Shown piece after piece: positions 1,704 through 50,771 of a stretch of 64,000 bases of DNA (within the stretch, counting starts at the first letter, position 1; each line of letters opens with the position of its first letter). A program made the position numbers and the translations under genes. This DNA comes from Chryseobacterium indoltheticum (GTDB lineage Bacteria > Bacteroidota > Bacteroidia > Flavobacteriales > Weeksellaceae). The notes below the pieces were generated by a model. It did not search any database. It saw nothing but the letters and a program-made list of their open reading frames with translations, and was not told where the DNA came from. Location of the stretch: positions 2,666,001-2,730,000 of the forward strand of contig NZ_CP033929.1 in the NCBI RefSeq assembly GCF_003815915.1, written 5' to 3'.

Positions 1704-1878
1704 AATAAAATAATTTATGGTTGTGGTGTTATCTTTAGAATAAGAAATTCTATGATTATTGGTCGCTTCAAAAATCTAACCAAAAATCTAAAATCATTTA
1801 AAAATAATTAATTTTTCGTAAAAAGAGGTTAAAAACATACATTATAAATATAAATCTGACAACCGTGAAAGAAATTTG

Positions 1879-1921
1879 TGATCGAAATCATAAAAACACA
1901 ATTACTTTTGTTGTACATTTG
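1879..1921 (+). promoter_or_regulatory. Promoter with FNR-type site (site A)
   Basis: TGATCGAAATCA at 1879-1890 is a perfect TGAT-N4-ATCA Crp/Fnr operator. A Bacteroidota -7 box, TACATTTG, lies at 1914-1921, 35 nt from the start of the operator. The same arrangement occurs at 3304-3347 and 5035-5078. Transcription would run rightward toward the Crp pseudogene. The rest of the 461-nt gap (1704-2164) shows no gene. Confidence 0.55.
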
Positions 1922-2164
1922 ATTTTAGTTAAATGATAGATTATGCTTTTTAAAAATTGCCTTAAACTATCATCATTCACATCGTACAATTGTGAAAGAT
2001 TTTGCTATTTACAATACTAAATACTTAATTCAGTAAAATATTTAATTATTGATATTATTTTAGACGTAAACTACTTATTCGTTTAAACTTTGTCACCTTC
2101 TAATATTTACTCATATCTTTTGTGAAGATTACCATCACAAGTCATCATCACACAGTAAGAAGCT

Positions 2165-2640
2165 ATGGTAATACATCAACAAATCCTGAAATCTGCAGGA
2201 GCAATCATTAAAAAGTATCAACCCAAGGAAAAGATTTTCACAAAAGGAGATTCTGCTCAATATTACTTTCAGATTGTTTCGGGAAGTGTAAAAATGAATA
2301 ATTATGACGAGTCGGGCAGAGAATATATTCAGATTTTTTGAAAGACGGAGAATGCTTTGGTGAATCACTGCTTTTTATAGATCACAAATATTCTATGAAT
2401 GCAATTGCGATTACTATGTGTGAAGTTTTAATCCTGAAAAAGACTTTATTTTTTAATTTGATACAGCAAAATCCAAAATTATGTTTTGAAATGAATAAGT
2501 GGCTCTCAAAAACAGCGTTTTAAACAAATAATGGCATAAAATGTGTTCACCAAATGTGACAGTAAAAACTTGCAATTCTTAAAGATTATCTGAAGAATTT
2601 TTAGACGCCAAAAAACATTCGTTATTCAGCCTATGCAATG
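2165..2640 (+). pseudogene. Decayed Crp/Fnr regulator
   Basis: An ATG at 2165 opens a frame that reads like the neighbouring Crp (KIFTKGDSAQYYFQIVSGSV) but stops at 2339-2341. In the next frame homology resumes at once (KDGECFGESLLFIDHKYSMN) and runs to 2523, pointing to a frameshift in the T-run at about 2333-2338. Beyond 2523 scattered residues still align, but stops interrupt them and the DNA-binding helix-turn-helix is missing. It is probably a dead paralogue of the intact gene that follows it. Confidence 0.75.
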
Positions 2641-2684
2641 AGAAATAAATGGTAATTACTGTATTAAAGAAAATTTTTTATACC

Positions 2685-3299
2685 ATGAAAACAATAAGTT
2701 GCATGAAGATCGATGAGCAATTGCTAAAATCGTACAGTGCGGAAATTAAAACTTACAAAAAAAGAGAACTTATTTTTAGAGAAGGAGAGTCTCCGGCTTT
2801 TTATTACCAGATTATAGAAGGTGCTGTGAAAGTGAATAATTTTAATGAAGAAGGGAAGGAGTTTATACATAATATTTTAGAAAAAGGACAAAGCTTCGGA
2901 GATGCTCATCTTTTTATTGAAAAAAAATATTCTGTAAACGCATATGCTCTTGTTCCTACGACAGTAATAATGTTGCCCAGAAAAAATTTCATCAATCTTG
3001 TCAAAGAAAATCCTCATGTTTCTCTGGAAATAAATGCCTGCTTATCACATCGTCTTTATTTCAAAATGAAAATGATACATGATATGGTCTCACAGCATCC
3101 ATCTGCAAGAATTCTTGGTCTCTTCAATTATCTTAGAAGTTATACCGATTGTGAAGATCAACATTCTTTTAATGTAAAGCTTACAAGGCAACAAATTGCT
3201 GATCTTACAGGTTTACGTGTAGAAACAATCATCAGAACCATTAAGAAAATGGAAAATGAAAATCTGGTAAAAATTAAAGATCGTAAGATATACTACTAA
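2685..3299 (+). CDS. Crp/Fnr family transcriptional regulator
   Basis: 204 residues from the ATG at 2685; in-frame ATGs at 2649 and 2703 are alternatives, and alignment with the paralogue at 4205-4798 favours a short N-terminus. It has a cNMP-binding-like beta roll (IFREGESPAFYYQIIEGAVK, GQSFGDAHLFI) and a C-terminal winged helix with LTRQQIADLTGLRVETIIR. The E-T-I-I-R recognition helix resembles the FNR E-T-x-S-R motif, which reads TGA half-sites, fitting the operators nearby. No cysteine set for an iron-sulfur cluster is present. The signal is unknown. Confidence 0.9.
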   Translation: MKTISCMKIDEQLLKSYSAEIKTYKKRELIFREGESPAFYYQIIEGAVKVNNFNEEGKEFIHNILEKGQSFGDAHLFIEKKYSVNAYALVPTTVIMLPRKNFINLVKENPHVSLEINACLSHRLYFKMKMIHDMVSQHPSARILGLFNYLRSYTDCEDQHSFNVKLTRQQIADLTGLRVETIIRTIKKMENENLVKIKDRKIYY

Positions 3300-3303
3300 A
3301 ATA

Positions 3304-3347
3304 TGACTGAAATCATAAATTAAAAAATCTGTTACAGAGTATATTTG
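3304..3347 (+). promoter_or_regulatory. Promoter with FNR-type site (site B)
   Basis: TGACTGAAATCA at 3304-3315 lies 36 nt before a -7 box, TATATTTG, at 3340-3347. It starts 4 nt after the Crp stop codon and faces the CinA gene at 3668. The rest of the 368-nt gap (3300-3667) holds short broken frames but no supportable gene. Confidence 0.55.
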
Positions 3348-3667
3348 ACCTCTTTTACTTTTAATAATTAGTATAAAAGAAAACACCACCAATCACCTAA
3401 ATAAATATATCGATATGAAAACACAATCATTCTATTTTACCCAATAAGATTTTGAAATTTGCAGTTGTATATCTCAGATTTAAACTGTAAAGTATGTCTT
3501 TATCAGTAATCTCTTCTCCATTATATTCTTTGTAAAAGTTGGAGGAGTGATGCAAAATTCGACGGTCAGGATATTATCAACGCATATAAAATAGCTGATG
3601 CTTTTTATTAGATCAAAAATGATGTATCGAGAAAATACAAATCACAACCTCATTAAAAACAAATCTT

Positions 3668-4168
3668 ATGGAATTTCAACAAAACTTACTCAATTATATC
3701 AGCGAAGCATTAATTACAACTAATGAAACCATTTCTATCGCTGAAAGTGTAACTTCAGGCCTTTTTCAGCTTGCTTTTTCACAAATGCCAAATGCTGCAA
3801 TGTTCTACAAAGGGGGAATTACCGCATATGCATTAGAACAAAAAGTAAAAATTTTAAACGTAGATTATGATGAAGGTAATGCATGTGACTGCGTTTCTGA
3901 GCAAATTGCTGAAACAATGGCACTCAGCGTAGCCAAATTATTCGACACCGACTGGTCTATTGCTGTTACGGGCTATGCCAACCCGATCAGGAGCTCTACG
4001 TACAAAATATTTTCATATTATTCTTTTGCCTACAAAGGTGAAGTAATTTTATCCAGAAAACTTGAACTTCATCCTAAAACACAGGCATTGGGAGCACAGC
4101 AATATTATACAGAATTTATTTTGGGATGTTTCAAAAGTGAGATCAATAAGCTTTTGATACTAAAATAA
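3668..4168 (+). CDS. CinA C-terminal-domain family protein (nicotinamide-nucleotide amidohydrolase-like)
   Basis: 166 residues, the length of stand-alone CinA C-terminal (PncC) proteins, which deamidate NMN in pyridine nucleotide salvage. The signature ISIAESVTSGLFQLAFS corresponds to the family AESxTgG segment (here T-S-G), followed by FYKGGITAYALEQK and AVTGYANP (family VTGxAGP). The A-N-P in place of A-G-P and other changes suggest divergence, so activity is uncertain. It lies downstream of promoter B and between two Crp/Fnr genes. Confidence 0.8.
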   Translation: MEFQQNLLNYISEALITTNETISIAESVTSGLFQLAFSQMPNAAMFYKGGITAYALEQKVKILNVDYDEGNACDCVSEQIAETMALSVAKLFDTDWSIAVTGYANPIRSSTYKIFSYYSFAYKGEVILSRKLELHPKTQALGAQQYYTEFILGCFKSEINKLLILK

Positions 4169-4204
4169 AAATTATTTCATCTGATTTAATATATCAACTA
4201 GAAG

Positions 4205-4798
4205 TTAATAAAAAATCTTTCTGTTTTTGATTTTTAAAATTCCTTCTTTCTCCATATTTTTTATAACCCGGATGACAGTTTCTACACTCAATCCGGTAAG
4301 AGAAGCGAGTTGCTGTCTGGTTAAAAGAATTTGCAACGCGTATTTTGACTGATCATGGTGATGATCTTTAAGATAATTCATCAACGTTAAAAGTTTTTGA
4401 GCAGGATTTTGAAATGCAATGCTTTCTGCCATCAAAAACTTGTAATGCATATGCTCAGAAAGACTCTGTATCGTTGTGAAATAATTGTCAGGGTTTTCCT
4501 GCAAAAGCTGTAAATATTGTGCTTTTGGTAATCTTATAATTTCAGATTCTTCTACTGCAACGGCATTTACAGGATACGATTTTTCTGTAAAAAGTGACGA
4601 TATACCGACACCATTGCCGCTTGAGAATATTCCTTGAATAAATTCTTTACCTCCTTCATTATAATTATTTAATTTTACTTTTCCACTTGAGATCAGGAAA
4701 AAAAAGCTGGGAACTTCACCTTCAGAAAATATAAAATCATCAGGGTCATAAGTTCTTAAATCTGCTCCAAAAGAAAATAAAATATCTTCATTTATCAT
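4205..4798 (-). CDS. Crp/Fnr family transcriptional regulator
   Basis: 197 residues from the ATG at 4796-4798 (MINEDILFSFGADLR). The frame extends upstream to 4933, but that stretch has no family similarity. It is a clear paralogue of the regulator at 2685-3299: FSEGEVPSFFFLISSGKVK, SYPVNAVAV, and LTRQQLASLTGLSVETVIR with the same E-T-[IV]-I-R recognition helix. No FNR-type cysteine cluster. It is transcribed away from site C. The two paralogues may compete for the same TGAnnnnnATCA operators; that is inference. Confidence 0.88.
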   Translation of the reverse strand: MINEDILFSFGADLRTYDPDDFIFSEGEVPSFFFLISSGKVKLNNYNEGGKEFIQGIFSSGNGVGISSLFTEKSYPVNAVAVEESEIIRLPKAQYLQLLQENPDNYFTTIQSLSEHMHYKFLMAESIAFQNPAQKLLTLMNYLKDHHHDQSKYALQILLTRQQLASLTGLSVETVIRVIKNMEKEGILKIKNRKIFY

Positions 4799-5034
4799 AT
4801 TATAGGGATTAATTGAAACTAAAAACCACCTGTTTATGCTACCAAACATAACAATGCTCGGATTTTTAGACCTGTAAAGAAAGAATAATTTTATGCAAAA
4901 GTGAATTAATTCGCTACCACACAGATACCACATTACTGATTAAATACCAAAATTTTTGCAGAAAATAAATTTTTAATAAAATATTATTGCTCAGTTTGAA
5001 TTAATAAATCAAAAAAAATATAATCTTTATTTGT

Positions 5035-5078
5035 TGATTAGAATCATAAAAAGAAATATGAAAATTCCGATACATTTG
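5035..5078 (+). promoter_or_regulatory. Promoter with FNR-type site (site C)
   Basis: TGATTAGAATCA at 5035-5046 followed 36 nt later by TACATTTG at 5071-5078. If transcription starts about 5 nt after the box, the operator centre is near -42, the classical class II activator position. Downstream is the small HTH gene at 5260. The rest of 4799-5259 shows no gene. Confidence 0.55.
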
Positions 5079-5259
5079 AATCAAGAACTTAACGAGAGAA
5101 AGGTTTGGCGAAATTTAATGTGTCATTTGATAATAAATAAAATATTATTGAGGCTAAATTTTGCGCTTTAAACCGCATTAATAAAAAAACTGATAATAAG
5201 AACGTTAATCATATTGAGGATTACATCTTTGATTATGATAGAGAAAAATTCTGCCCATA

Positions 5260-5607
5260 ATGAATAATAATAGAGACAACACGCAAGACTTTAACGCAGA
5301 ACACACCGCAAAAATTTTGGCTGACGAAGAAATAATCAGGCTTGCTAAACAAAATTCACCGCGTCTTTTAAGTAAATTTAAATCTGCATATCCCGAATTT
5401 TTTGAGCACCTTGCCTTAATTAATGGAAATTTGCAAAATTCTGAAATTATTTTTTGTATCTATCTCAAGTTGAGATTGAGTACAAAAGAAATTGCAACTT
5501 ACACATTTGTAACACCAAAGGCAATTCAGAATAGAAAAAACCGATTACGAAAAAAACTTAAAATTTCTTCAGACACCGATATTTATAAATGGTTTGATCA
5601 GCTTTAA
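5260..5607 (+). CDS. Small LuxR-type helix-turn-helix protein
   Basis: 115 residues. The C-terminal half carries LSTKEIATYTFVTPKAIQNRKNRLRKKL, which has the layout of the DNA-binding helix-turn-helix seen at the end of flavobacterial TPR-LuxR regulators, here without sensor or TPR domain. The N-terminal 60 residues are predicted helical and may dimerise. It lies downstream of an FNR-type promoter (site C), so it could be a target of the Crp paralogues. It converges with pdeM, leaving 3 nt between the stops. Confidence 0.7.
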   Translation: MNNNRDNTQDFNAEHTAKILADEEIIRLAKQNSPRLLSKFKSAYPEFFEHLALINGNLQNSEIIFCIYLKLRLSTKEIATYTFVTPKAIQNRKNRLRKKLKISSDTDIYKWFDQL

Positions 5608-5610
5608 AAA

Positions 5611-6255
5611 TCAGATCTCATAGATTTCGGCATCTGTAAAAACATAGAATCTTCCTTTTTGAGGGAGATTTTTTGTATCCAAACCGGTAAATTCGCTGAA
5701 GGCCGGAAGCAATAGTTGGTTTTCAGTGAGCACAAAACACGGAAGCTTTATTTTTTTAACCAAAGAATTAATCACAAAACCTGGGTGAATGTGTCCAGTA
5801 ATCTGAAACTTTTCTATATTTTTATCGAAATCATGCACAAAAGAAATACCATCAATTTCCAGAGAATCAGATCGTGAATCTAAACATAATTTCTTCTCTA
5901 AAGTTTTTGAAATCTTATCATGATTACCTTCTACCAAACAGAATTTAATGTCTGAATATTGATTTTTCCAAATGCAAAATTCGTCTACATCAGAATTGTT
6001 TCCGGCATGAAGCAAGTCGCCGACGATAATAAATTTTTCAGGCTGGAAATATTCTATTAAAACCGAAAGCCTTTCAAGATCATTTTTCATAATATGACTC
6101 GCCAGAGCAATTCCGTTTTTACGAAAATGTGCCGTTTTACCGATGTGTAAATCCGAAAAAATCAATGCTTTTTCTTTTTTCCAGAATAGTGCACGCTGAT
6201 TGGTTAAAGTAAGAGTTTCGTTGTTAATATTGATATTCTTAGTTACTATTTTCAT
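5611..6255 (-). CDS. pdeM: Ligase-associated DNA damage response phosphoesterase PdeM
   Basis: 214 residues with the ordered calcineurin-like metallophosphoesterase motifs: FSDLHIGK (about residue 35), GDLLHA (about 80), EGNHD (about 110) and TGHIHPG (about 155). These bind the two metal ions. The family (TIGR04123 type) is found only beside the ATP-dependent ligase, Lhr-like helicase and exonuclease, and all three lie directly upstream here. The DNA substrate is not fixed by sequence. The gene ends the four-gene minus-strand set; a 124-nt spacer separates it from the helicase. Confidence 0.9.
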   Translation of the reverse strand: MKIVTKNININNETLTLTNQRALFWKKEKALIFSDLHIGKTAHFRKNGIALASHIMKNDLERLSVLIEYFQPEKFIIVGDLLHAGNNSDVDEFCIWKNQYSDIKFCLVEGNHDKISKTLEKKLCLDSRSDSLEIDGISFVHDFDKNIEKFQITGHIHPGFVINSLVKKIKLPCFVLTENQLLLPAFSEFTGLDTKNLPQKGRFYVFTDAEIYEI

Positions 6256-6379
6256 TTTAATATTTTGCTTGTCAATATCAGACTAAGATGTTTTTATAAA
6301 GAATAGATTCTCCACTGCACTTTAGTTCCGTTCAGAATGACAAAAAGTTTTAATAATTTTCAATTGACTTATTGACGAT

Positions 6380-8830
6380 TCATTTTATATTTCTTCCCGA
6401 TTGTTTAATCAATTTCTGAATCCTCGCATCCAGATTTTCACTCGTTAATGTTTGTCGTAAGCTGTCAACTTTTATCGGGAAACTCAAAGGCGTAAATTTA
6501 TTTGAATATTTTAAAATAAGCTTTGATTTTTCAATTCGTTTAAAAGCTTCTACCAAGCGCTGCTCCTGCAATTGCATATTGAAAACTTCTGTATATGCCT
6601 GTCTCACTAGAAAATGATTGGGATCGTAATCTTCCAATACTTTAAAAATCAAACCTGCAGAACTTTGCAATGCTTTATTTGACCGTTGTTGTCCGGGGAA
6701 ATTCTGTACAACCATTCCTGAAATTACGGCAATATCCCTGAATTTCCGTCTTGCCATTTCAGCAGAATTAATACTGGAAATCACATCAATCATCAGATTT
6801 TCTCTCGTCAATATTTTCTCTAAATTATCTTCATTCAACGGTATTTCTTTATCGCTGAATAATTCAAAACCATAATCGTTCATCGCCATCGAAAAAGAAA
6901 TAGGCGCCAATTTTGAAATTCGATAAGCAATCAAAGCAGCCATTACTTCGTGTACCAATCGGCCCTCAAAAGGATACATAAAAAGATGATAGCCTTCACG
7001 GTTTTTAATTAATTCAACCAAAAATTCATCCTCCTTCGGAATGTGTGAGCGCTCTTCCTGGTTGATTAATAAGGGATGTAAGAATTTCAGTTCCTTTTCA
7101 GATGCTTTCGGGTTTAATGCTCCTGATAATTTTTCTCGTAAAAAATGCCCCAAATTTGAACTTAAAGGTAACCTTCCGCCCAGATAACTTGGCGCCATCG
7201 CTTTTCCTTTAGATGCACGTACAAAAACCGTCATATCCTTTATCATTGCCACTTCCAAAACACGACCGGCAAGAATAAATTTCTCTTCTTTTTTCAGTCT
7301 CGAAATAAAATATTCCCCAACCATTCCTATATATCCGCCGGAAATAAATTTCACCTTCAACATTGCATCGCTTACAATCGCTCCCATATTCATTCGGTGA
7401 AGCATTGCGATTTTTCTTGAAGTGACTTTGTGTAAACCGTCTTCCATTATGACAACTTTGTGATATTCTTCGTAGTTTTTCAACGCACTTCCACCGATTG
7501 TCAGAAAGTCAACGATCTCCTTCCATTCTTCATCTCTGATTTCCTGAAACGTATATATTTTTTTAATTCTTTCGTAAATTTCATTAGGAAAAAAACCGTC
7601 ACCGACCGCTAAAGTCATCAGAAATTGCACCAATACATCAAAGCATAAAACCTGCGGCTCGCGTGGTTCTATTACTTTTTGTTTTACGGCTTCTTTTAAA
7701 GCTGCTACTTCAATCAGCTCTAAAGAATGCGTAGGAACACAGAAAATTTTGGAAGTCTCAAAAGGGGAGTGGCCACTTCGTCCCGCCCGTTGTAGAAACC
7801 TTGCAACACCTTTTGCAGAACCAATTTGTATAACCGTATCAACAGGTTTAAAATCGATTCCTAAATCTAAAGATGAGGTCGAGACAACAGCTTTTAATTT
7901 TCCTGAACTTAAGTTTTCTTCAATCCAGATTCTTAAATGTGCATCGATTGAGCTGTGATGAATAGCGATTTGTCCCGCAAAATCAGGATAAGCATTGAGT
8001 AACAATTGATACCACATTTCACTTTGGCTTCGGGTATTGGTAAAGACAATGGTCGATTTAGATTCCAAAATAATAGGAACCACTTTATCCGCTAATTTTT
8101 GACCGAGATGTCCTGCCCAAGGCAAAAGCTCAACTTCATCTGGAAAAACTGAAATAATATCAATTTTCTTAAGCTCTTTAGCCGTGATTTTTGTTTTTTT
8201 GATATCGTAAGGAATCAAAACATCCTGCGCTTCATCAAGATTCCCAATGGTTGCTGTAATTCCCCAAATTTTAAGTTTCGGAACATAGTGAAAGAGCTGG
8301 GAAATCGCCAACTCCACCATTACGCCACGTTTTGAGCCTAGCAATTCGTGCCATTCATCTACGACCACACAATGCATATTATTGAAGAATCGCTGATGAT
8401 TTTTTTGACCTAAAAGCAAGTGCAAACTTTCGGGAGTTACCACTAAAATTTCAGGCATATTTTTGACCTGCTGTTGACGCACTTTAGGATCGGTGTCGCC
8501 ATTTCTCACCCCAACTGCCCAATCCAGACCAATCTCATCAATCGCTTCCTGCATTGCTTTTGCGATGTCTTTTGAAAGCGAACGAAGTGGTGTAATCCAA
8601 ATCATTTTCAGACCTTTCTTATACTTGTTTGGATAAGTGAGAAAGTCTGAAATTAATGCTAAAAAAACCGAAAATGTTTTCCCGAAACCCGTCGGAGCTA
8701 CAACCATTCCGCTGTAGCCACTGCCAAATTTTTTCCAGGTATCAATCTGAAATTTAAATGGAGAATTGCCTTTTTCCATCATCCAGTTTTGGATGATTTT
8801 GAATCCTTCCTTATTTTCGTAGTTGCTCAA
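6380..8830 (-). CDS. Ligase-associated DEXH box helicase (Lhr-like)
   Basis: 816 residues. Walker A APTGFGKT near residue 45, a DEWHE box (DExH type) near 158, ITATIGN (motif III), and motif VI GRSGHSP near 360 after a TSSLDLGIDF motif V. The C-terminal half holds the winged-helix and Lhr-core region. Members are DNA-dependent 3'-5' translocases/helicases; the ligase-associated type (TIGR04121) occurs with a ligase, an exonuclease and PdeM in bacterial DNA repair. Full length for the family, no frameshift seen. Confidence 0.93.
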   Translation of the reverse strand: MSNYENKEGFKIIQNWMMEKGNSPFKFQIDTWKKFGSGYSGMVVAPTGFGKTFSVFLALISDFLTYPNKYKKGLKMIWITPLRSLSKDIAKAMQEAIDEIGLDWAVGVRNGDTDPKVRQQQVKNMPEILVVTPESLHLLLGQKNHQRFFNNMHCVVVDEWHELLGSKRGVMVELAISQLFHYVPKLKIWGITATIGNLDEAQDVLIPYDIKKTKITAKELKKIDIISVFPDEVELLPWAGHLGQKLADKVVPIILESKSTIVFTNTRSQSEMWYQLLLNAYPDFAGQIAIHHSSIDAHLRIWIEENLSSGKLKAVVSTSSLDLGIDFKPVDTVIQIGSAKGVARFLQRAGRSGHSPFETSKIFCVPTHSLELIEVAALKEAVKQKVIEPREPQVLCFDVLVQFLMTLAVGDGFFPNEIYERIKKIYTFQEIRDEEWKEIVDFLTIGGSALKNYEEYHKVVIMEDGLHKVTSRKIAMLHRMNMGAIVSDAMLKVKFISGGYIGMVGEYFISRLKKEEKFILAGRVLEVAMIKDMTVFVRASKGKAMAPSYLGGRLPLSSNLGHFLREKLSGALNPKASEKELKFLHPLLINQEERSHIPKEDEFLVELIKNREGYHLFMYPFEGRLVHEVMAALIAYRISKLAPISFSMAMNDYGFELFSDKEIPLNEDNLEKILTRENLMIDVISSINSAEMARRKFRDIAVISGMVVQNFPGQQRSNKALQSSAGLIFKVLEDYDPNHFLVRQAYTEVFNMQLQEQRLVEAFKRIEKSKLILKYSNKFTPLSFPIKVDSLRQTLTSENLDARIQKLIKQSGRNIK

Positions 8831-44648: not shown

Positions 44649-44981
44649 ATGAAGAACTATATATTTCTGGCATTTGCGATACTTTTCGAATCTGTCGCAA
44701 CATCTTTTTTAAAAGCATCTGAAGGATTTACAAAACCTTTGCAAAGTGTAATTTTTGTCGTAGCAATGTCAGCTTCATTTTATTTGCTCACACACGCCAT
44801 AAAAGTTATTCCAATCGGAATTGCGTATGCAATTTGGTCGGCCGTGGGAATCGTTTTAATTTCTTTGGTTGGGTATTTTGTTTATAAACAAACTCTTGAT
44901 CTTCCTGCAATACTTGGAATTCTTTTGATTATAATCGGAGTAGTGATTATCAATATATTTTCAAAATCGGCATCTCATTAA
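44649..44981 (+). CDS. Small multidrug resistance (SMR) exporter
   Basis: 110 residues with four hydrophobic helices. FAILFESVATSFLKASEGFTK holds the essential glutamate of TM1 (E14 equivalent), and IPIGIAYAIWSAVG the conserved tryptophan/proline of TM3. SMR proteins export cationic compounds as dimers. It is the last host gene before the dif-type site. Confidence 0.92.
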   Translation: MKNYIFLAFAILFESVATSFLKASEGFTKPLQSVIFVVAMSASFYLLTHAIKVIPIGIAYAIWSAVGIVLISLVGYFVYKQTLDLPAILGILLIIIGVVIINIFSKSASH

Positions 44982-45026: not shown

Positions 45027-45054
45027 ATTTAACATAATGTAAATTATAGGACTT
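45027..45054. other. dif-type recombination site (chromosome dimer resolution site) at the left end of the prophage
   Basis: ATTTAACATAA (45027-45037) equals the reverse complement of the XerD arm of E. coli dif. It is followed by a 6-nt centre, TGTAAA (45038-45043), and an 11-nt arm TTATAGGACTT (45044-45054), giving the 11-6-11 dif architecture. The centre and second arm recur at 49900-49916. A host dif site used as attachment site is the simplest reading. Confidence 0.7.
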
Positions 45055-45109
45055 TTGGAAAAATGAAGATACAGATGTATATTAATGTTTAATAAAAACA
45101 CAAATTACA

Positions 45110-45634
45110 ATGTATCAAATTGCACCTTACGACTTATCAAAGTCATTTAAATTTATTCCTGAAAAGAAAAAGTATTGTTTACTTTTCGAACTTGGCAACA
45201 CCGTAGAATTTACCAGCAAGCGAAAAGCTTTTGATTTTATCGCTAAACTTTCACATTTATTTGTTGAAACGTTGGCAATCTCTGAAATGGTCAACAATAC
45301 AATAAGTTCGTTTAGTTTTCACATTAAACCATTACGCAAGTCAAATAATGATTTATACAACATTTACCATAATAATTCTGCGGATATTTTTGAGTTAATA
45401 AGAGATTTAAAATTCTATCAGAATGTAAAAATCGAATTGTATCAGATTGTAATGAGATTTAATAGATTGATTAATTTGATTGTTCAGAACTGTAAAATTC
45501 TTAATAAAAAAAATTATAATTGTGTAGTCCCATATCAATTGATTATAGAAAAGTCCGCTAAATGTTTGTGGAAAATAATTGAGAATGCCGCTTATCATTA
45601 TGAGAACAAAAAATTAACATTGTTTCTACTTTAA
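45110..45634 (+). CDS. Hypothetical phage protein, 174 residues
   Basis: No recognised family. The N-terminus is beta-rich (YCLLFELGNTVEFTSK), the rest mostly helical and rich in Asn, Lys and Ile. No signal peptide. First gene of the element, 10 nt before the replication initiator, with which it is probably translated. A role in replication or early functions is inference. Confidence 0.55.
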   Translation: MYQIAPYDLSKSFKFIPEKKKYCLLFELGNTVEFTSKRKAFDFIAKLSHLFVETLAISEMVNNTISSFSFHIKPLRKSNNDLYNIYHNNSADIFELIRDLKFYQNVKIELYQIVMRFNRLINLIVQNCKILNKKNYNCVVPYQLIIEKSAKCLWKIIENAAYHYENKKLTLFLL

Positions 45635-45644
45635 AAATCTGCTT

Positions 45645-46559
45645 ATGTTTTACCAATTATCACGGTTAGGCTTTGCAGAGATAAAGCAAAACGGTTACAG
45701 GTCACAGTTCTCGGGAAGTTCAAAATATAAATGTTGGAATAATACTCTATTTGATAAAGTGAAAAATTCTGACACAGATGTTATTGAAAAGATGGAAAAT
45801 GAGGCGAAAAACGCTACTGATAAAGAAAAAGAGATAAGATATTATGGATTGAGAAAAAATAAAATAAGAAATAAAATATTAAATTTCTTTTCGCTGAATA
45901 AATCTAAAAAATTCTGTGCGTTCTATACAATTACTTTTCCGCTTAATATCAATGATGATTTAGCTTATCAATTGTTAAATACTTGGTTAACTCGCTGTAG
46001 AAAATCCGAAGGTCTAAAGTCTTATCTTTGGGTTGCTGAACGTCAGAAAAACAATACTTTGCACTTTCATTTAATAACTAATAATTACATGAAAATTGGT
46101 GTGGTAAATGATTTTATGAAGGAATGTTTACGAACTCAAAAAAACAAAGGAAAATTAGTATGTCGGAACAATATTATAAATAAATATAATGGCGTAGACG
46201 TAGATAATTTGTATCAAAGTAAAAGAAGAAATAACAAAAATGAAAGATTGGATAAAGTAGAAAGCATGCGTAAATTGTCTATGTACTTAACAAAATATAT
46301 TACAAAAAACGAAACAAAATCAGTTCGTTTGCCGTGGCATTGTTCCCGAGATATTTCCGCATTATTTATATCTATAAATTATCAAGATGTTTCAAGTTTA
46401 GAAATAGCAAATTTAATTTCTGATAATCCAGATGCTGTAGTTTCTTATCATGAGGATTTTTTTTCTATGCATTATTTTAGGTTTATTCCAGATGATTTCT
46501 ATTTTGCTGATTTAATTAATATTAATAATTCGGTGTACGAAAACTTTCATCCGAATTAA
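45645..46559 (+). CDS. Rolling-circle replication initiator (HUH endonuclease)
   Basis: 304 residues. The HUH metal-binding motif is LHFHLI, about residue 140, preceded by the motif 1 strand FCAFYTITFPL and followed by the tyrosine motif YLTKYITK near residue 215, similar to microvirus (gokushovirus VP4) and plasmid Rep proteins. It would nick the double-strand origin and covalently bind the 5' end. Supports an ssDNA replication intermediate. Gene order (first 174-aa gene, then Rep) is typical for a phage early region. Confidence 0.8.
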   Translation: MFYQLSRLGFAEIKQNGYRSQFSGSSKYKCWNNTLFDKVKNSDTDVIEKMENEAKNATDKEKEIRYYGLRKNKIRNKILNFFSLNKSKKFCAFYTITFPLNINDDLAYQLLNTWLTRCRKSEGLKSYLWVAERQKNNTLHFHLITNNYMKIGVVNDFMKECLRTQKNKGKLVCRNNIINKYNGVDVDNLYQSKRRNNKNERLDKVESMRKLSMYLTKYITKNETKSVRLPWHCSRDISALFISINYQDVSSLEIANLISDNPDAVVSYHEDFFSMHYFRFIPDDFYFADLININNSVYENFHPN

Positions 46560-46585
46560 TTTATATATTTGAAAAAACCTTTAAG

Positions 46586-46774
46586 ATGAAAAATAAAACC
46601 ACTCTCCTATTAATTCTGCTTGTGTTTTCAGTGTTTGGAAATATTTATTTATTTACGGAAAACAAAAAAATGAAAGTTGCAGATCAAAAAAAGTTAAAAA
46701 TTTTTACAGAAGTTTCGGACAGTTTGTCATACTTTCGAATGCAAAGAGATTCTACATTATTATCTCAGCATTAG
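46586..46774 (+). CDS. Small membrane-anchored protein
   Basis: 62 residues. A single N-terminal helix TLLLILLVFSVFGNIYLF is followed by a charged helical tail. Could be a virion minor protein, or a host-membrane protein. No homologue recognised. It lies 26 nt after the Rep gene and directly before the structured non-coding block. Confidence 0.55.
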   Translation: MKNKTTLLLILLVFSVFGNIYLFTENKKMKVADQKKLKIFTEVSDSLSYFRMQRDSTLLSQH

Positions 46775-46789
46775 TACGTTTTGTCATGA

Positions 46790-47268
46790 TTGCACGTTGC
46801 CGTGCATATTGCCATCACGTAGCCAAAACTCGCCGCCCAGCCTTGTACCCTTTCGGCTCAAACAATTGTCTACAGCCGCCTCGTGCGCTGGTTGTATTGC
46901 GCATAGGCCAACGCTTCCAACGCTAATGCCCCGCAAAGTTACATAATAGACATTATACGCAAAGTGCCAGCGCTAGCCGTTGCCTTCCACTTCGTTACTG
47001 GCAAACCCTCACCATTTTTGCCTATAATGTGATATTATGCAAAATTGCTCTCTTGCAACGTGCAAAGCCCTTTTGCCCCTCTCCTTTTTCCTTTCTTTCC
47101 CTTCCTGAATGGCACACCGTGCGCCTACACATGGCATTTTGACAACATACAGCATTTTCCGCACACAGCAATAGTTCATTTCATCTGTACATCTTCACTT
47201 TGTTGCAGAAGTACAGCTATTGCCTTAGTGCGGAAAAATGCTGTGCCACAGCTAAAAAAATGCCATGT
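46790..47268. other. Palindrome-rich non-coding block (candidate origin/packaging region)
   Basis: Higher GC than its surroundings and no plausible ORF. TTGCACGTTGC at 46790-46800 is the perfect reverse complement of 47055-47065, enclosing a second pairing GCGCTGG (46885-46891)/CCAGCGC (46967-46973). A 140-nt hairpin at 47129-47268 uses ACATGGCATTTT/AAAATGCCATGT, ACAGCATTTTCCGCAC (47149-47164) with GTGCGGAAAAATGCTGT (47228-47244), GCAATAG/CTATTGC, and CTGTAC/GTACAG. This resembles the intergenic origin/packaging regions of ssDNA phages. Confidence 0.65.
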
Positions 47269-47387
47269 TCCGGTAGGTATTCCCTTTGGTCATGGTTTTA
47301 TATTTTTTAAAAAAAGAAAAATAAAAAAAAAAATATTTGGAATTGTGACAATTTGTCATATATTTGAAATGACAAAATGGCAGTATT

Positions 47388-47510
47388 ATGAAAGATTTAA
47401 TTTTCAAATGGTTTTTAGGATTCTTAGAAAGAATTTTATCCGATTTAGTGGATGACGGAAAAATTAACGGTTCTGTGAAAGCGGAAATTTTGAAAAAAAT
47501 AACCGAATAA
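47388..47510 (+). CDS. Small hypothetical protein, 40 residues
   Basis: ATG 47388 to TAA 47510. One amphipathic N-terminal helix (DLIFKWFLGFLERILSDL) followed by a charged KAEILKKITE end. Position between the structured block and the DUF6266-like gene and a good frame suggest a real gene. Function unknown. Confidence 0.5.
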   Translation: MKDLIFKWFLGFLERILSDLVDDGKINGSVKAEILKKITE

Positions 47511-47585
47511 CTCCGAATCAACTCCGTTTGTCGCATTCGATTTTTATACGTCAGGTAGTGAAAGGTTTAATTTAAAAAATATATT

Positions 47586-48242
47586 ATGGCAATAATTAGT
47601 GGTGCATTGTTTAGTCAAGCAAAAGGTAGTGTAGGTAATTTAACATTAAGTACACAAAAAGGTAGAGTAATAATGAAGTCTAAAGCTAGTGTAGTATCGA
47701 ATCCGAATACATCAGCTCAGCAAAGACAAAGAGCATTTATTTCGAAGGCTGTTATAGCTTGGAAATTATTAGGTAACGTTTTAAAAAGTGGCATAACTTC
47801 TTTAGTTCAATACGGTAGTCAATATAATACATATGTATCTAAGAATGCACAGCATTTTACGACCGCAATGTTTGATATTAATTCAATGGCTGGTGGTGAC
47901 TTGATTGGTTCTTTTGCTACTATAGGCGCAAGAGGTGAGTTATCCTATTCGCTTGTAAGCAAAGACACAGATTCTGTTACATTATCTATCAATAATTCTA
48001 CATTGAAGAATACGGCAAATATTGGTGATGTACTTAAACTTGTAATTGGTGATACAGCTGCAGCAGAGTTTTCATATTCCGAATTAGAAATTACGCAATC
48101 AATGTTAGAAAATGCTGTTACAACTGTAACATTTAACGATTTATCTCTTCCTTTTGATAGCATGTTAGTTTCCACTTTATGGTCTGAAAGTTCAGATATG
48201 ACCCAGTCAAATACTTCGAAGTTTAAACTTCTATTATCTTAG
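47586..48242 (+). CDS. DUF6266-like protein, possible structural protein
   Basis: 218 residues. The N-terminus ISGALFSQAKGSVGNLTLST with GRVIMKSKASVVSNPNTSAQQ resembles DUF6266 proteins of Bacteroidota, followed by a helical QQRQRAFISKAVIAWKLL and a beta-rich C-terminal domain. DUF6266 has no proven role. In this small element it is the best candidate for a virion component. A terminator hairpin follows directly (48266-48296). Confidence 0.6.
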   Translation: MAIISGALFSQAKGSVGNLTLSTQKGRVIMKSKASVVSNPNTSAQQRQRAFISKAVIAWKLLGNVLKSGITSLVQYGSQYNTYVSKNAQHFTTAMFDINSMAGGDLIGSFATIGARGELSYSLVSKDTDSVTLSINNSTLKNTANIGDVLKLVIGDTAAAEFSYSELEITQSMLENAVTTVTFNDLSLPFDSMLVSTLWSESSDMTQSNTSKFKLLLS

Positions 48243-48265
48243 TTTTTCTTGGTTTTATGGTTTTG

Positions 48266-48296
48266 GCGGTTACGGTTATTTTCTGTGACCGCTTTT
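48266..48296 (+). terminator. Terminator after the DUF6266-like gene
   Basis: GCGGTTAC (48266-48273) pairs with GTGACCGC (48285-48292, one G:U) and TTTTG follows. Confidence 0.6.
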
Positions 48297-48331
48297 GTTT
48301 ATACATATTTAGATTTTATAGTTTATTTATT

Positions 48332-48826
48332 ATGAATAGTTTAGATAGGCACGATATCGATAATGTTTGTCTACGGATTTTAGAAAATGTCCGTAGAGAT
48401 TATAATTATTACTATCCTCATGTTTACTTTATGTATCATTACGGTGTCAGAATTGGTGAAGTGTTTTATAACAGAATAGTTTATGATGCCAAGCAAGAAA
48501 GGTTAATAGTTGATCCACAGAAGAATAATAATAACAGAATCGAAAAGATTAAAGATGCGAATACTTTAAAACTTTTAGAAAGTTTGCACATGTCTAGCGA
48601 TCTTAATTGGATGAATATCAGGAATTTACAAAGAATTATTGATAAAGTCAATCCCGTTGGAAAATTAATGTGTGGTAATAAAAAGATAGGCGCACACTTA
48701 TTCCGTCATAATTGGATAAGAAAGCAGTTAATATTCGGGCATCAGTTCGATACAATTAATGCAATGTTGGGCTACACAAAACAGACGGTTGCAGATACAT
48801 ATTTAGTAGCAAAGATTTATTATTAA
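48332..48826 (+). CDS. Tyrosine recombinase reduced to the catalytic domain
   Basis: 164 residues from ATG 48332, chosen because an earlier start (48257) would run through the terminator hairpin. Catalytic elements: YGVRIGE (Arg I), HLFRHNWIR (H-x-x-R box), LGYTKQ and VADTYLVAK with the nucleophile Tyr near residue 158. There is no N-terminal SAM-like core-binding domain. It could therefore act with host XerC/XerD at the dif-type site instead of alone; that is inference. Confidence 0.75.
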   Translation: MNSLDRHDIDNVCLRILENVRRDYNYYYPHVYFMYHYGVRIGEVFYNRIVYDAKQERLIVDPQKNNNNRIEKIKDANTLKLLESLHMSSDLNWMNIRNLQRIIDKVNPVGKLMCGNKKIGAHLFRHNWIRKQLIFGHQFDTINAMLGYTKQTVADTYLVAKIYY

Positions 48827-48843
48827 TTCACAAAAAAAATACA

Positions 48844-48966
48844 ATGATGTTATTACAAATTATAGAAAACCAGCAGCAGGATGTTAATACATTATTATTA
48901 ATCGTATTGACTATTTTAATGATCGGTAGAGCAATAGATAAATATTTCGATAACACTAAAAAGTAA
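48844..48966 (+). CDS. Small single-span membrane protein, holin candidate
   Basis: 40 residues, too short for most gene finders. One transmembrane helix TLLLIVLTILMIGRAI with Asn/Gln-rich N-terminal side and a lysine-rich C-terminus (DKYFDNTKK). The stop (48964-48966) is 6 nt before the endolysin start, the usual holin-endolysin order. Pinholins/holins are this small only rarely, so holin is a guess. Confidence 0.55.
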   Translation: MMLLQIIENQQQDVNTLLLIVLTILMIGRAIDKYFDNTKK

Positions 48967-48972
48967 AATACT

Positions 48973-49443
48973 ATGGATAAAAATTTATGTAAAAAAGCTG
49001 TGGATTTTGTATGTGATTTAGAAGGTTTTAAGGAATATGCGTACAAAGATAGCGGAGGTGTATGGACTGTAGGTTATGGTCAGACATATTTTAGCGGTGG
49101 TAAAAAAGTGATGCAATATGATAAAATTGGAAAAACTGAAAGTATATTATTTGTACAAAAAAAAGTAGAAAAAATTTATTATAATATCGTTAAGAGAATT
49201 AATAGAACATTGCCAGAGAATCAATATGTAGCTTTAATTTCGTTTGTGTATAATGTTGGAGAAACAGCTTTTAATAGGTCTACTCTATTAAAGTTTATAA
49301 ATATGAATAGAGAAAAAATTGAGATAATTAGCGAGTTTAAAAATTGGGTTTATGTGAAAGGTGTATTTGTGCAAGGTCTTTTGAATAGGAGGTTAAAAGA
49401 ATCTTCTTTATATTTTCAGGAAAAAATAGGAGAATTATTTTAA
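48973..49443 (+). CDS. GH24 (T4 lysozyme-type) endolysin
   Basis: 156 residues. Catalytic glutamate in DLEGFKEYAYKDSGG, followed by WTVGYGQT with the Asp/Thr-Gly-Tyr-Gly motif of the family, then ALISFVYNVGETAF. No signal peptide, so a holin or other release is needed. The presence of a lysis gene argues against a chronic, non-lytic filamentous phage. Confidence 0.88.
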   Translation: MDKNLCKKAVDFVCDLEGFKEYAYKDSGGVWTVGYGQTYFSGGKKVMQYDKIGKTESILFVQKKVEKIYYNIVKRINRTLPENQYVALISFVYNVGETAFNRSTLLKFINMNREKIEIISEFKNWVYVKGVFVQGLLNRRLKESSLYFQEKIGELF

Positions 49444-49462
49444 ATATTGTATAGGAAATTTG

Positions 49463-49580
49463 TATATTTGATATGTTCAGATGAAAGGCTAAACGCTCTG
49501 TAGAGGTACAACGTGAATCGATAATCTGAATGCAATACGATACAGAAGTATAAAAGTGTTTACAATTGTAGACGCTTTTT
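49463..49580 (+). ncRNA. Putative small RNA with its own promoter and terminator
   Basis: A perfect -7 box TATATTTG at 49463-49470, then a predicted start at about 49476 in TTCAGAT, which pairs with ATCTGAA at 49524-49530. The transcript ends at a terminator hairpin, AAAGTGTTTACAA with TTGTAGACGCTTT (49553-49578), followed by a run of T. No start codon leads to an ORF beyond a few codons. About 105 nt. No known family recognised. Confidence 0.6.
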
Positions 49581-49888
49581 TTTGTGTAAAAATGTACAAG
49601 GTTGGTCCAGGTTAATAGTTATATGAAAATTCTGTAGCGGATGCCTATGGAAAAAAAACCTATATACATTGCCTCTAATAATGGATTTATCTAATACTTC
49701 ATTTTTCAAACTTTTATTTTTAACGGTCACATTGTCAGATTAATAATTTGTTTTTGTCATTTTGCTGTTAGATATTTGTATTTATAAAATTATGTATCTT
49801 CATAATTATTTCTTTAAAGTTTACAATGCAACACAGTTTTAAAAACTAAGTAACATTAGTATAACTTTCTGATAAATAAGGCTTTCCG

Positions 49889-49918
49889 ACCCGTCATAGT
49901 GTAAATTATAGGACTTTT
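49889..49918. other. Right attachment site of the prophage (attR)
   Basis: Contains TGTAAA centre (49900-49905) and the arm TTATAGGACTT (49906-49916) identical to the left site, but the left arm is ACCCGTCATAG rather than the XerD-type arm. Fits a recombined dif with the phage's own arm. Confidence 0.65.
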
Positions 49919-50261: not shown

Positions 50262-50771
50262 ATGAAAAAGTATATTGTATTCGGATCATTGTCTGTTTTG
50301 ATGATAAGCTGTAATAAAAAAAATGAAACTGTAAAACCTGTAGCTACTACAGATTCTCTTGAAGCTCCGGCTGAGCCGGTAATTGATACTTTAGGAGCAA
50401 AAACTTTTTGTTATTTGGGGGTTACCGGCAAAGACAGTGTTTTTGTAAGCATTGATGATAATTTAGGCACACTTTCTGGAAAAATGGCTTATAAAAACAG
50501 CGAAAAAGACAGTTCAAAAGGTGAATTATTTGGATTTAAATCCGGTGATACTTTAAAACTGACTTATCAATTTGCGTCTGAAGGTACAACCAGCAAAAGA
50601 GATATTTTCTTCATTCAGAAAGACAATACTTTAATGGAAGGAATCGGAAGCCAGAAAGATGAAAACGGATTGATGCGTTATGCTGACGAAAAGAAAATAA
50701 CCTATAAAGACGGGCAAAAACTTGAAACAGCTGATTGTAAAATGGTCACAAAAGCTTTAGTTATTAAATAA
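50262..50771 (+). CDS. Small lipoprotein of unknown function
   Basis: 169 residues with a lipobox signal, GSLSVLMISCNKK. The mature part is beta-rich and contains KTFCYLGVTGKDSVFVSIDD. Anchored in the periplasm or outer membrane. No known domain identified. It ends at a strong bidirectional terminator shared with the next gene. Confidence 0.7.
   Translation: MKKYIVFGSLSVLMISCNKKNETVKPVATTDSLEAPAEPVIDTLGAKTFCYLGVTGKDSVFVSIDDNLGTLSGKMAYKNSEKDSSKGELFGFKSGDTLKLTYQFASEGTTSKRDIFFIQKDNTLMEGIGSQKDENGLMRYADEKKITYKDGQKLETADCKMVTKALVIK

Follow-up and report, generated by a model that had tools for sequence, protein, structure and literature searches.

A probable rolling-circle prophage of about 5 kb, with a recombinase of its own, at the chromosomal dif of Chryseobacterium indoltheticum

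The window analysed here, a 64,000-nucleotide stretch of Chryseobacterium indoltheticum (positions 2,666,001 to 2,730,000 of NZ_CP033929.1, the one contig, of 4,253,895 bases, of this genome), contains a block of ~4.9 kb located at dif, the site used by the host to separate chromosome copies. This block can be regarded with good confidence as a prophage of a family, apparently undescribed, of rolling-circle phages of ~5 kb, probably packing single-stranded DNA (ssDNA), integrated at the host dif through an exchange of the Xer type. The attribution relies on the structure of the junctions, on the empty site of a relative, on a tandem homologue in Riemerella columbipharyngis that reveals the position of the crossover and on a gene set (Table 1) comprising a rolling-circle initiator (Rep), a tyrosine recombinase and an endolysin. 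The presence of these three genes had been proposed in an earlier reading of the letters (hereafter, the sequence-only reading) and is borne out by the searches, Rep and the GH24 endolysin scoring above the Pfam cut-offs and the recombinase being clear by PDB-chain profile and fold.

The course of events that we envisage begins with a phage site (attP) having a dif-like XerC arm and centre and a poor XerD arm, which would recombine with the host dif, strand exchange taking place in the 6-bp centre, so that the left end would hold a complete dif and the right end a hybrid site. Rep would make the circular form by rolling circle, the single strands would be packed, and release would be accomplished by a small holin-like membrane protein together with the GH24 endolysin.

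The insertion at dif and its boundaries

The left junction displays the 11-6-11 layout of dif that the sequence-only reading had recognised, and the same site is found in most genomes of the genus; the match of its left arm was with what we take to be the XerD arm of E. coli dif. Likewise real is the 24-bp direct repeat said to bound the ~4.9-kb block: its copies (45033-45056 and 49895-49918) have one mismatch (96% identity) and a spacing of 4862 bp, which is the repeat unit of the element. When the region was shuffled 200 times by dinucleotides, no shuffle attained the longest exact part of this repeat, 19 bp (mean 13.8); the shuffle maximum being 18 bp, the length of the repeat alone represents modest evidence, whereas its position is strong evidence. 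attR reads ...CATAG-TGTAAA-TTATAGGACTT, with 49916 as its last base, and the attP junction of the excised circle would read GTCATAG-TGTAAA-TTATAGGACTTTTGG; its XerC arm matches dif at 11/11 positions and its XerD arm at 5/11.

Relatives without the insertion do possess the 28-bp site, as expected from the sequence-only reading, and in one of them (G059) the empty site is seen directly (...CAATTTAACATAATATAAATTATAGGACTTTTATAATTA...), the left flank of the element (1565 bp aligned, 89.9% identity) and its right flank (627 bp, 84.5%) being found on either side of one dif. Because the two flanks meet at a single dif in G059, the element of the window is an insertion whose left junction retains the complete dif.

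The position of the crossover can be deduced from a second occurrence in the same family. The Rep alignment retrieved R. columbipharyngis DSM 24015 and the recombinase profile retrieved G372, evidently the same genome, its sequence being identical to that of contig NZ_FNAS01000002.1 where the two were compared; in it, two tandem copies of 5224 bp, differing at 0 of 5224 positions in this draft assembly, are located at dif. The left site reads ATTTAACATAA-TATAAA-TTATAGGATTT (host XerD arm and phage XerC arm), the internal, phage/phage junction ATTTTAGATAA-TATAAA-TTATAGGATTT and the right site ATTTTAGATAA-TATAAA-TTATAAGACTA (phage XerD-side arm and host XerC arm). Thus, host arms (ATTTAACATAA on the left, TTATAAGACTA on the right) and phage arms are swapped across the centre, which places the crossover in the centre, as in Xer recombination. 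The XerC arm of this attP matches dif at 10/11 positions. The gene order is that of the window element, small proteins included, with an extra 102-aa (amino acid) gene after Rep, and the three small proteins of the window element align with their R. columbipharyngis counterparts. Among 320 genomes of the family, strong matches are found only in these two, both for Rep (E <1e-140; next best 3.4e-31, in G149) and for the recombinase (E <1e-60; next best 1.4e-11), and both genomes (2/320) have the element at dif.

The identity of the site as the chromosomal dif is supported by its distribution. With three mismatches at most, the 28-bp site was found in 92 of 147 genomes and its reversed control pattern in none; within the genus it occurs in 83 of 88 genomes including this one (82 of the 87 others), as a single copy in each matching genome except G008, which has two, while at this threshold it was not found in G039, G048, G061, G070 and G076. 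The 17-bp word formed by centre and XerC arm is present in 136 of the 320 family genomes, being single in 134 and doubled only in this genome and in R. columbipharyngis; the reversed control of the word matched in six of the 320 (G015, G051, G075, G256, G334 and, nine times, G219), so that one chance match of this word is not rare.

The GC skew leads in the same direction. According to the available text of PMC3025954, the positions predicted for dif are strongly correlated with the shift in skew. In G028 a two-arm pattern accommodates all 20 of the sampled 20-kb stretches, with sign changes at 0.87-1.055 Mb and 2.97-3.17 Mb and the dif-type site (1,050,008) at the first of these, and in G086 the skew is positive at 0.22 Mb, about zero at 0.33-0.52 Mb, an interval that surrounds the site (422,083), and then mostly negative. 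The cumulative skew of the genome under study, computed over 0.5 Mb, 34 kb of which are missing, shows a broad peak at 2.58-2.66 Mb and declines beyond 2.72 Mb; the position of the site is 2.711 Mb. The location of dif predicted by the sequence-only reading is therefore sustained, the shift coinciding with the site in G028, spanning it in G086 and lying within ~50-130 kb of it here. The dnaA gene was also tried as origin marker; it disagreed with the skew, which was consequently used alone.

Gene content and nature of the element

Table 1. Features of the dif-located element and of its chromosomal neighbours (window positions)
Feature	Position	Strand	Remarks
SMR-family transporter gene, left chromosomal neighbour	44649..44981	+	within the left flank aligning beside the G059 empty site
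attL	45027..45054	+	XerD-type arm ATTTAACATAA, centre TGTAAA, XerC-type arm TTATAGGACTT; complete 11-6-11 dif on the left side
174-aa protein, function unassigned	45110..45634	+	R. columbipharyngis homologue at the corresponding position (17% identity, phmmer E 9.6e-6)
Rep, rolling-circle initiator, 304 aa	45645..46559	+	PF23343 REP_ORF2-G2P, E 9.6e-10, above Pfam cut-off
62-aa protein	46586..46774	+	N-terminal hydrophobic stretch by eye; R. columbipharyngis homologue (19/59 aligned residues identical)
GC-rich non-coding region	46775..47300	.	long hairpin ~47125-47285; folding z -5.5 (100 shuffles)
40-aa protein	47388..47510	+	R. columbipharyngis homologue (21/37)
DUF6266-like protein, 218 aa	47586..48242	+	model helical towards the N-terminus, with an FN3/Ig-like sandwich towards the C-terminus
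Tyrosine recombinase, 164 aa	48332..48826	+	catalytic domain only; open reading frame listing starts at upstream ATG 48257
40-aa protein, just before endolysin	48844..48966	+	hydrophobic stretch by eye; R. columbipharyngis homologue (20/39)
GH24 lysozyme-type endolysin, 156 aa	48973..49443	+	PF00959, E 7.5e-32, above Pfam cut-off
32-bp non-coding motif ATGGATTTATCTAATACTTCATTTTTCAAACT	49681..49712	+	conserved in R. columbipharyngis and Dysgonamonadaceae elements (3/3 aligned)
attR	49889..49916	+	degenerate XerD arm ACCCGTCATAG (5/11), centre TGTAAA, XerC arm TTATAGGACTT
169-aa gene, right chromosomal neighbour	50262..50771	+	lipoprotein-like by eye; within the right flank aligning beside the G059 empty site

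TLCphi of Vibrio cholerae, which has a rolling-circle Rep, differs from the element of the window in that the latter belongs to another phylum and has a lysis cassette and a tyrosine recombinase of its own. On the other hand, the attP of TLCphi and that of the GGI of Neisseria, as given in the available text of PMC5357621, resemble dif in the XerC arm and the centre but diverge from it in the XerD arm, insertion being at dif, which is the pattern found here. With CTXphi and the other Inoviridae belonging to the dif-integrating mobile elements (IMEX) the element shares an initiator of the PF23343 (G2P-containing) type, the insertion at dif and, in its R. columbipharyngis homologue, the tandem arrangement, CTXphi also forming tandem arrays. 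Unlike the Inoviridae, it has an endolysin, and no profile match to the morphogenesis ATPase Zot/pI was obtained among its six larger proteins, the two 40-aa proteins being too short. The major capsid protein VP1 of microviruses is large (~500 aa), whereas the longest open reading frame (ORF) of the element is Rep and no gene of VP1 size is present; its recombinase represents another difference from the microvirus prophages of Bacteroidota. The BMV/Alpavirinae prophages resemble it in having Bacteroidota hosts and a dif-like site, their DNA being single-stranded; the available text of PMC3091885 describes how, in Bacteroidales, microvirus prophages encoding no recognisable recombinase occupy dif-like sites. 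Similarly small, Rep-encoding and associated with Bacteroidota are the PhiCjT23- and FLiP-like ssDNA phages (Finnlakeviridae and relatives), and the available text of PMC9719478 reports that Flavobacterium has PhiCjT23-like prophages, of 6.0-8.4 kb, flanked by dif; however, these phages, of ~6-9 kb, have a double-jelly-roll capsid and a spike, neither of which was recognised in the present element, which encodes a recombinase. As ssDNA prophages at dif or dif-like sites of Bacteroidota were already in print in these two articles, the opinion expressed in the sequence-only reading that an IMEX in this phylum is unusual is not upheld, and with it the chief reason for surprise is lost.

The most likely virion protein would be the DUF6266-like product. 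Its score with PF19781 (19.9 bits) is below the Pfam cut-off (23.4), hence the label "DUF6266-like"; the family is annotated in seven of its ten listed homologues. Fold searches with the model yielded, among the rows shown, mostly FN3/Ig-like structures matching residues 115-218 and no capsid fold, residues 1-114 being barely covered, and the best BFVD match (E 4.3e-5) was an uncharacterised protein of virus sp. ctQiC1. If the product is indeed a virion protein, a family of unknown function would gain a role and an apparently new type of capsid or coat would be at hand. In the open-licence literature no publication on DUF6266 was found, and none of the publications listed appeared to deal with the family of the element; without a parallel described there are DUF6266 as the sole large candidate virion protein and a 164-aa recombinase in a ~5-kb phage integrated at dif. 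Of the 246 genomes examined from the order, 24 also have DUF6266 genes in their chromosomes, and in 30 chromosomal DUF6266 loci (L100-L129) no Rep or recombinase match was found alongside.

An alternative in which the element is a capsid-less satellite of the TLCphi kind, borrowing the virion of a helper phage and having DUF6266 as an accessory, is rather unlikely: the element carries lysis genes of its own, two orders have DUF6266 in the company of Rep, and the DUF6266-like gene of a gut phage scaffold is followed by genes for a small protein of the membrane type and for an endolysin of the M15 family. Far less probable still is an integrated plasmid or a decayed relic, a possibility that draws on the lack of a proven virion protein and on the existence of rolling-circle Rep proteins also outside phages; the genes, in fact, read as open frames, the gene set recurs with another endolysin family and the tandem copies of R. 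columbipharyngis are identical.

Several observations weigh against the prophage reading as a whole. The element is known here from its sequence, not from an isolate, reads, a circular form or a particle. No known capsid or packaging gene was detected by Pfam or PHROGs, even though a missing match does not exclude one, and in scans of INPHARED phages and IMG/VR neither Rep nor the recombinase found a match, nor did Rep in PLSDB, records near this genome being possibly excluded. The poorness of the XerD arm, pronounced in the window, is only mild in R. columbipharyngis (9/11). Furthermore, the centre is TGTAAA at both ends (45038-45043 and 49900-49905), while it is TATAAA in all other same-genus matches listed; as one of the two ends ought to hold the host centre, either the host lineage already had TGTAAA, a centre present also in three genomes of other genera (G283, G291 and G351), or repair copied it. 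Finally, the skew maximum of this genome is broad and 50-130 kb off the site, and dnaA, at 3.006 Mb, is not opposite to it.

As to the remaining parts of the element, the 174-aa protein belongs to no Pfam or PHROGs family, apart from one Pfam row with E 0.61, and the second 40-aa protein may be holin-like, judging from its place. The GC-rich region, whose R. columbipharyngis counterpart has a folding z of -11 (20 shuffles), is a candidate complementary-strand origin or packaging signal, and the 32-bp motif a candidate nick site of Rep, or origin. An Rfam search gave no match, nor did an IMG/VR search with an origin-like pattern that was one base off the window sequence and thus missed the loci of the window too.

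The recombinase and the agent of integration

Compared with Pfam alone the recombinase gives a weak match (E 0.028); the profiles of PDB chains, however, identify XerA (E 6e-10) and the fold search agrees. The protein has the fold and the catalytic set of the tyrosine recombinase superfamily (Arg, Lys, His-x-x-Arg, Tyr), residues R40, K64, H122, R125 and Y157 being invariant in 23 aligned sequences and Y148 occupying the usual His/Trp place. The N-terminal core-binding domain, used by Xer-type enzymes to grip the arms, is absent, the model spanning the catalytic domain only.

The outcome expected by the sequence-only reading, namely that of an IMEX, is accordingly confirmed in part. The element is small, phage-like, inserted at the chromosomal dif and endowed with the geometry of an IMEX of the TLCphi type, i.e., a dif-like XerC arm and centre and a divergent XerD arm; a strict IMEX, on the other hand, has no integrase of its own and uses host XerC/XerD, whereas a 164-aa tyrosine recombinase is encoded here. 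Who performs the integration is therefore a matter of relative probabilities. The likeliest arrangement, albeit one that we put forward tentatively, is that the phage recombinase acts together with host XerC/XerD, replacing or boosting XerD at the poor arm. Nearly as likely is integration by the XerC and XerD of the host alone, as for TLCphi and GGI, the phage enzyme having another job such as excision or the resolution of concatemers, rolling-circle multimers or tandem arrays. This possibility gains from the attP arm pattern, which is the one reported for TLCphi and GGI (PMC5357621), from the microvirus prophages of Bacteroidetes at dif-like sites without recognisable recombinase (PMC3091885) and from the host XerC/XerD inferred by the authors for the PhiCjT23-like prophages (PMC9719478), within the limits of the available texts; the host genome, moreover, has three recombinase-type genes with a SAM-like domain, and in a G008 stretch delimited by two dif-like sites the recombinase profile gave no match. 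Yet the catalytic residues are kept in the 23 aligned recombinases and a relative adjoins DUF6266 in another order, which indicates that the enzyme matters to the element. The intactness of these residues, and the location at dif of the element in both (2/2) family genomes having a strong recombinase match, would also suit a self-sufficient integrase for which dif is merely the target; this is doubtful, considering the absent core-binding domain, the crossover and arm pattern, which are those of Xer, and the Dysgonamonadaceae relative, bounded by a 92-bp repeat and not by a canonical dif.

In the available texts the known ssDNA prophages integrating at dif are explained by the host Xer enzymes. 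The combination of dif with a stripped-down recombinase of its own makes the element a natural test of the minimal needs of a tyrosine recombinase, and the same family can test whether viral and host subunits may share one synapse. A more daring and rather improbable proposal is that of a temperate ssDNA family of ~5 kb having DUF6266 as its sole large structural protein, built of a helical arm and an FN3/Ig-like sandwich with no jelly roll, and entering dif by a mixed synapse in which the catalytic-domain-only recombinase takes the place of XerD on the poor arm beside host XerC. If this were true, the stand-alone DUF6266 genes across Bacteroidota chromosomes would be kin of a virion protein.

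Relatives and other loci

Outside the family, the gene set recurs in a metagenome-assembled genome of the Dysgonamonadaceae (order Bacteroidales), whose locus L034 combines Rep with matches for DUF6266 (E 9e-29) and for the recombinase (165 aa, E 3.7e-10), the endolysin being a peptidase M15. This element (1750-6600, 4.85 kb) is bounded by the 92-bp direct repeat, whose copies are spaced by 4850 bp, and is next to the start of a gene that by eye resembles radA. The presence of M15 instead of the GH24 of the window indicates that the endolysin can vary while Rep, DUF6266 and recombinase stay together. L034 is one of sixteen other loci of the Rep scan (L034-L049) checked for ORFs of at least 60 aa: clear matches for both recombinase and DUF6266 were obtained only in L034, a weak recombinase match (E 5.8e-4) in L044, and no site close to dif in any of them, the best being that of L034 (20/28). 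These loci look like other elements and were rejected as instances of the same dif element.

Including the proteins of the window itself, 553 homologues were collected for Rep (E 1e-3 or better), 55 for the recombinase and 10 for the DUF6266-like protein. For 23 of the best 120 of the 553 Rep homologues the longest contig is of 4.4-5.8 kb, as free genomes would be, and the Rep-recombinase pairs of equal-sized contigs shorter than 8 kb number 5, compared with 0.8 expected (maximum 5 in 2000 draws), a difference that, as a sign of linkage, is suggestive only. The finding of close Rep homologues on ~5-kb contigs suggests that the family is not rare, though no member was found in the phage collections searched.

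The unannotated human-gut phage scaffold MT836516.1 (L168; 10,455 bases) encodes, besides a 383-aa DUF6266-like protein (E 9.2e-18) and an SSB, an endolysin of the M15 type and a small protein of the membrane type. It contains an exact 124-bp repeat with copies 9,814 bp apart; terminal redundancy was ruled out, since 517 bases still follow the second copy in the record and the similarity does not extend into them. In the available text of PMC8361208, consulted for a possible origin of the scaffold from virus-like particles, the accession is not named.

In G008 the two dif-like sites, of the same polarity (positions 3736 and 15019 of locus L150, G008:C2:1060001-1079000), delimit a stretch of 11.3 kb with a Rep of its own (387 aa, PF23343) and, as in the window, a poor XerD arm on the right. 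A lysozyme-like protein is recognisable there by PHROGs (endolysin, E 9.6e-6) and, under the cut-off, by Pfam (E 0.0019), whereas no capsid was identified; the stretch is perhaps a relative of FLiP and PhiCjT23. Lastly, G356 and G357 have seven and six scattered PF23343-like Rep genes, respectively, with 387-aa open frames and near-equal scores, which look like copies of a multi-copy rolling-circle element.

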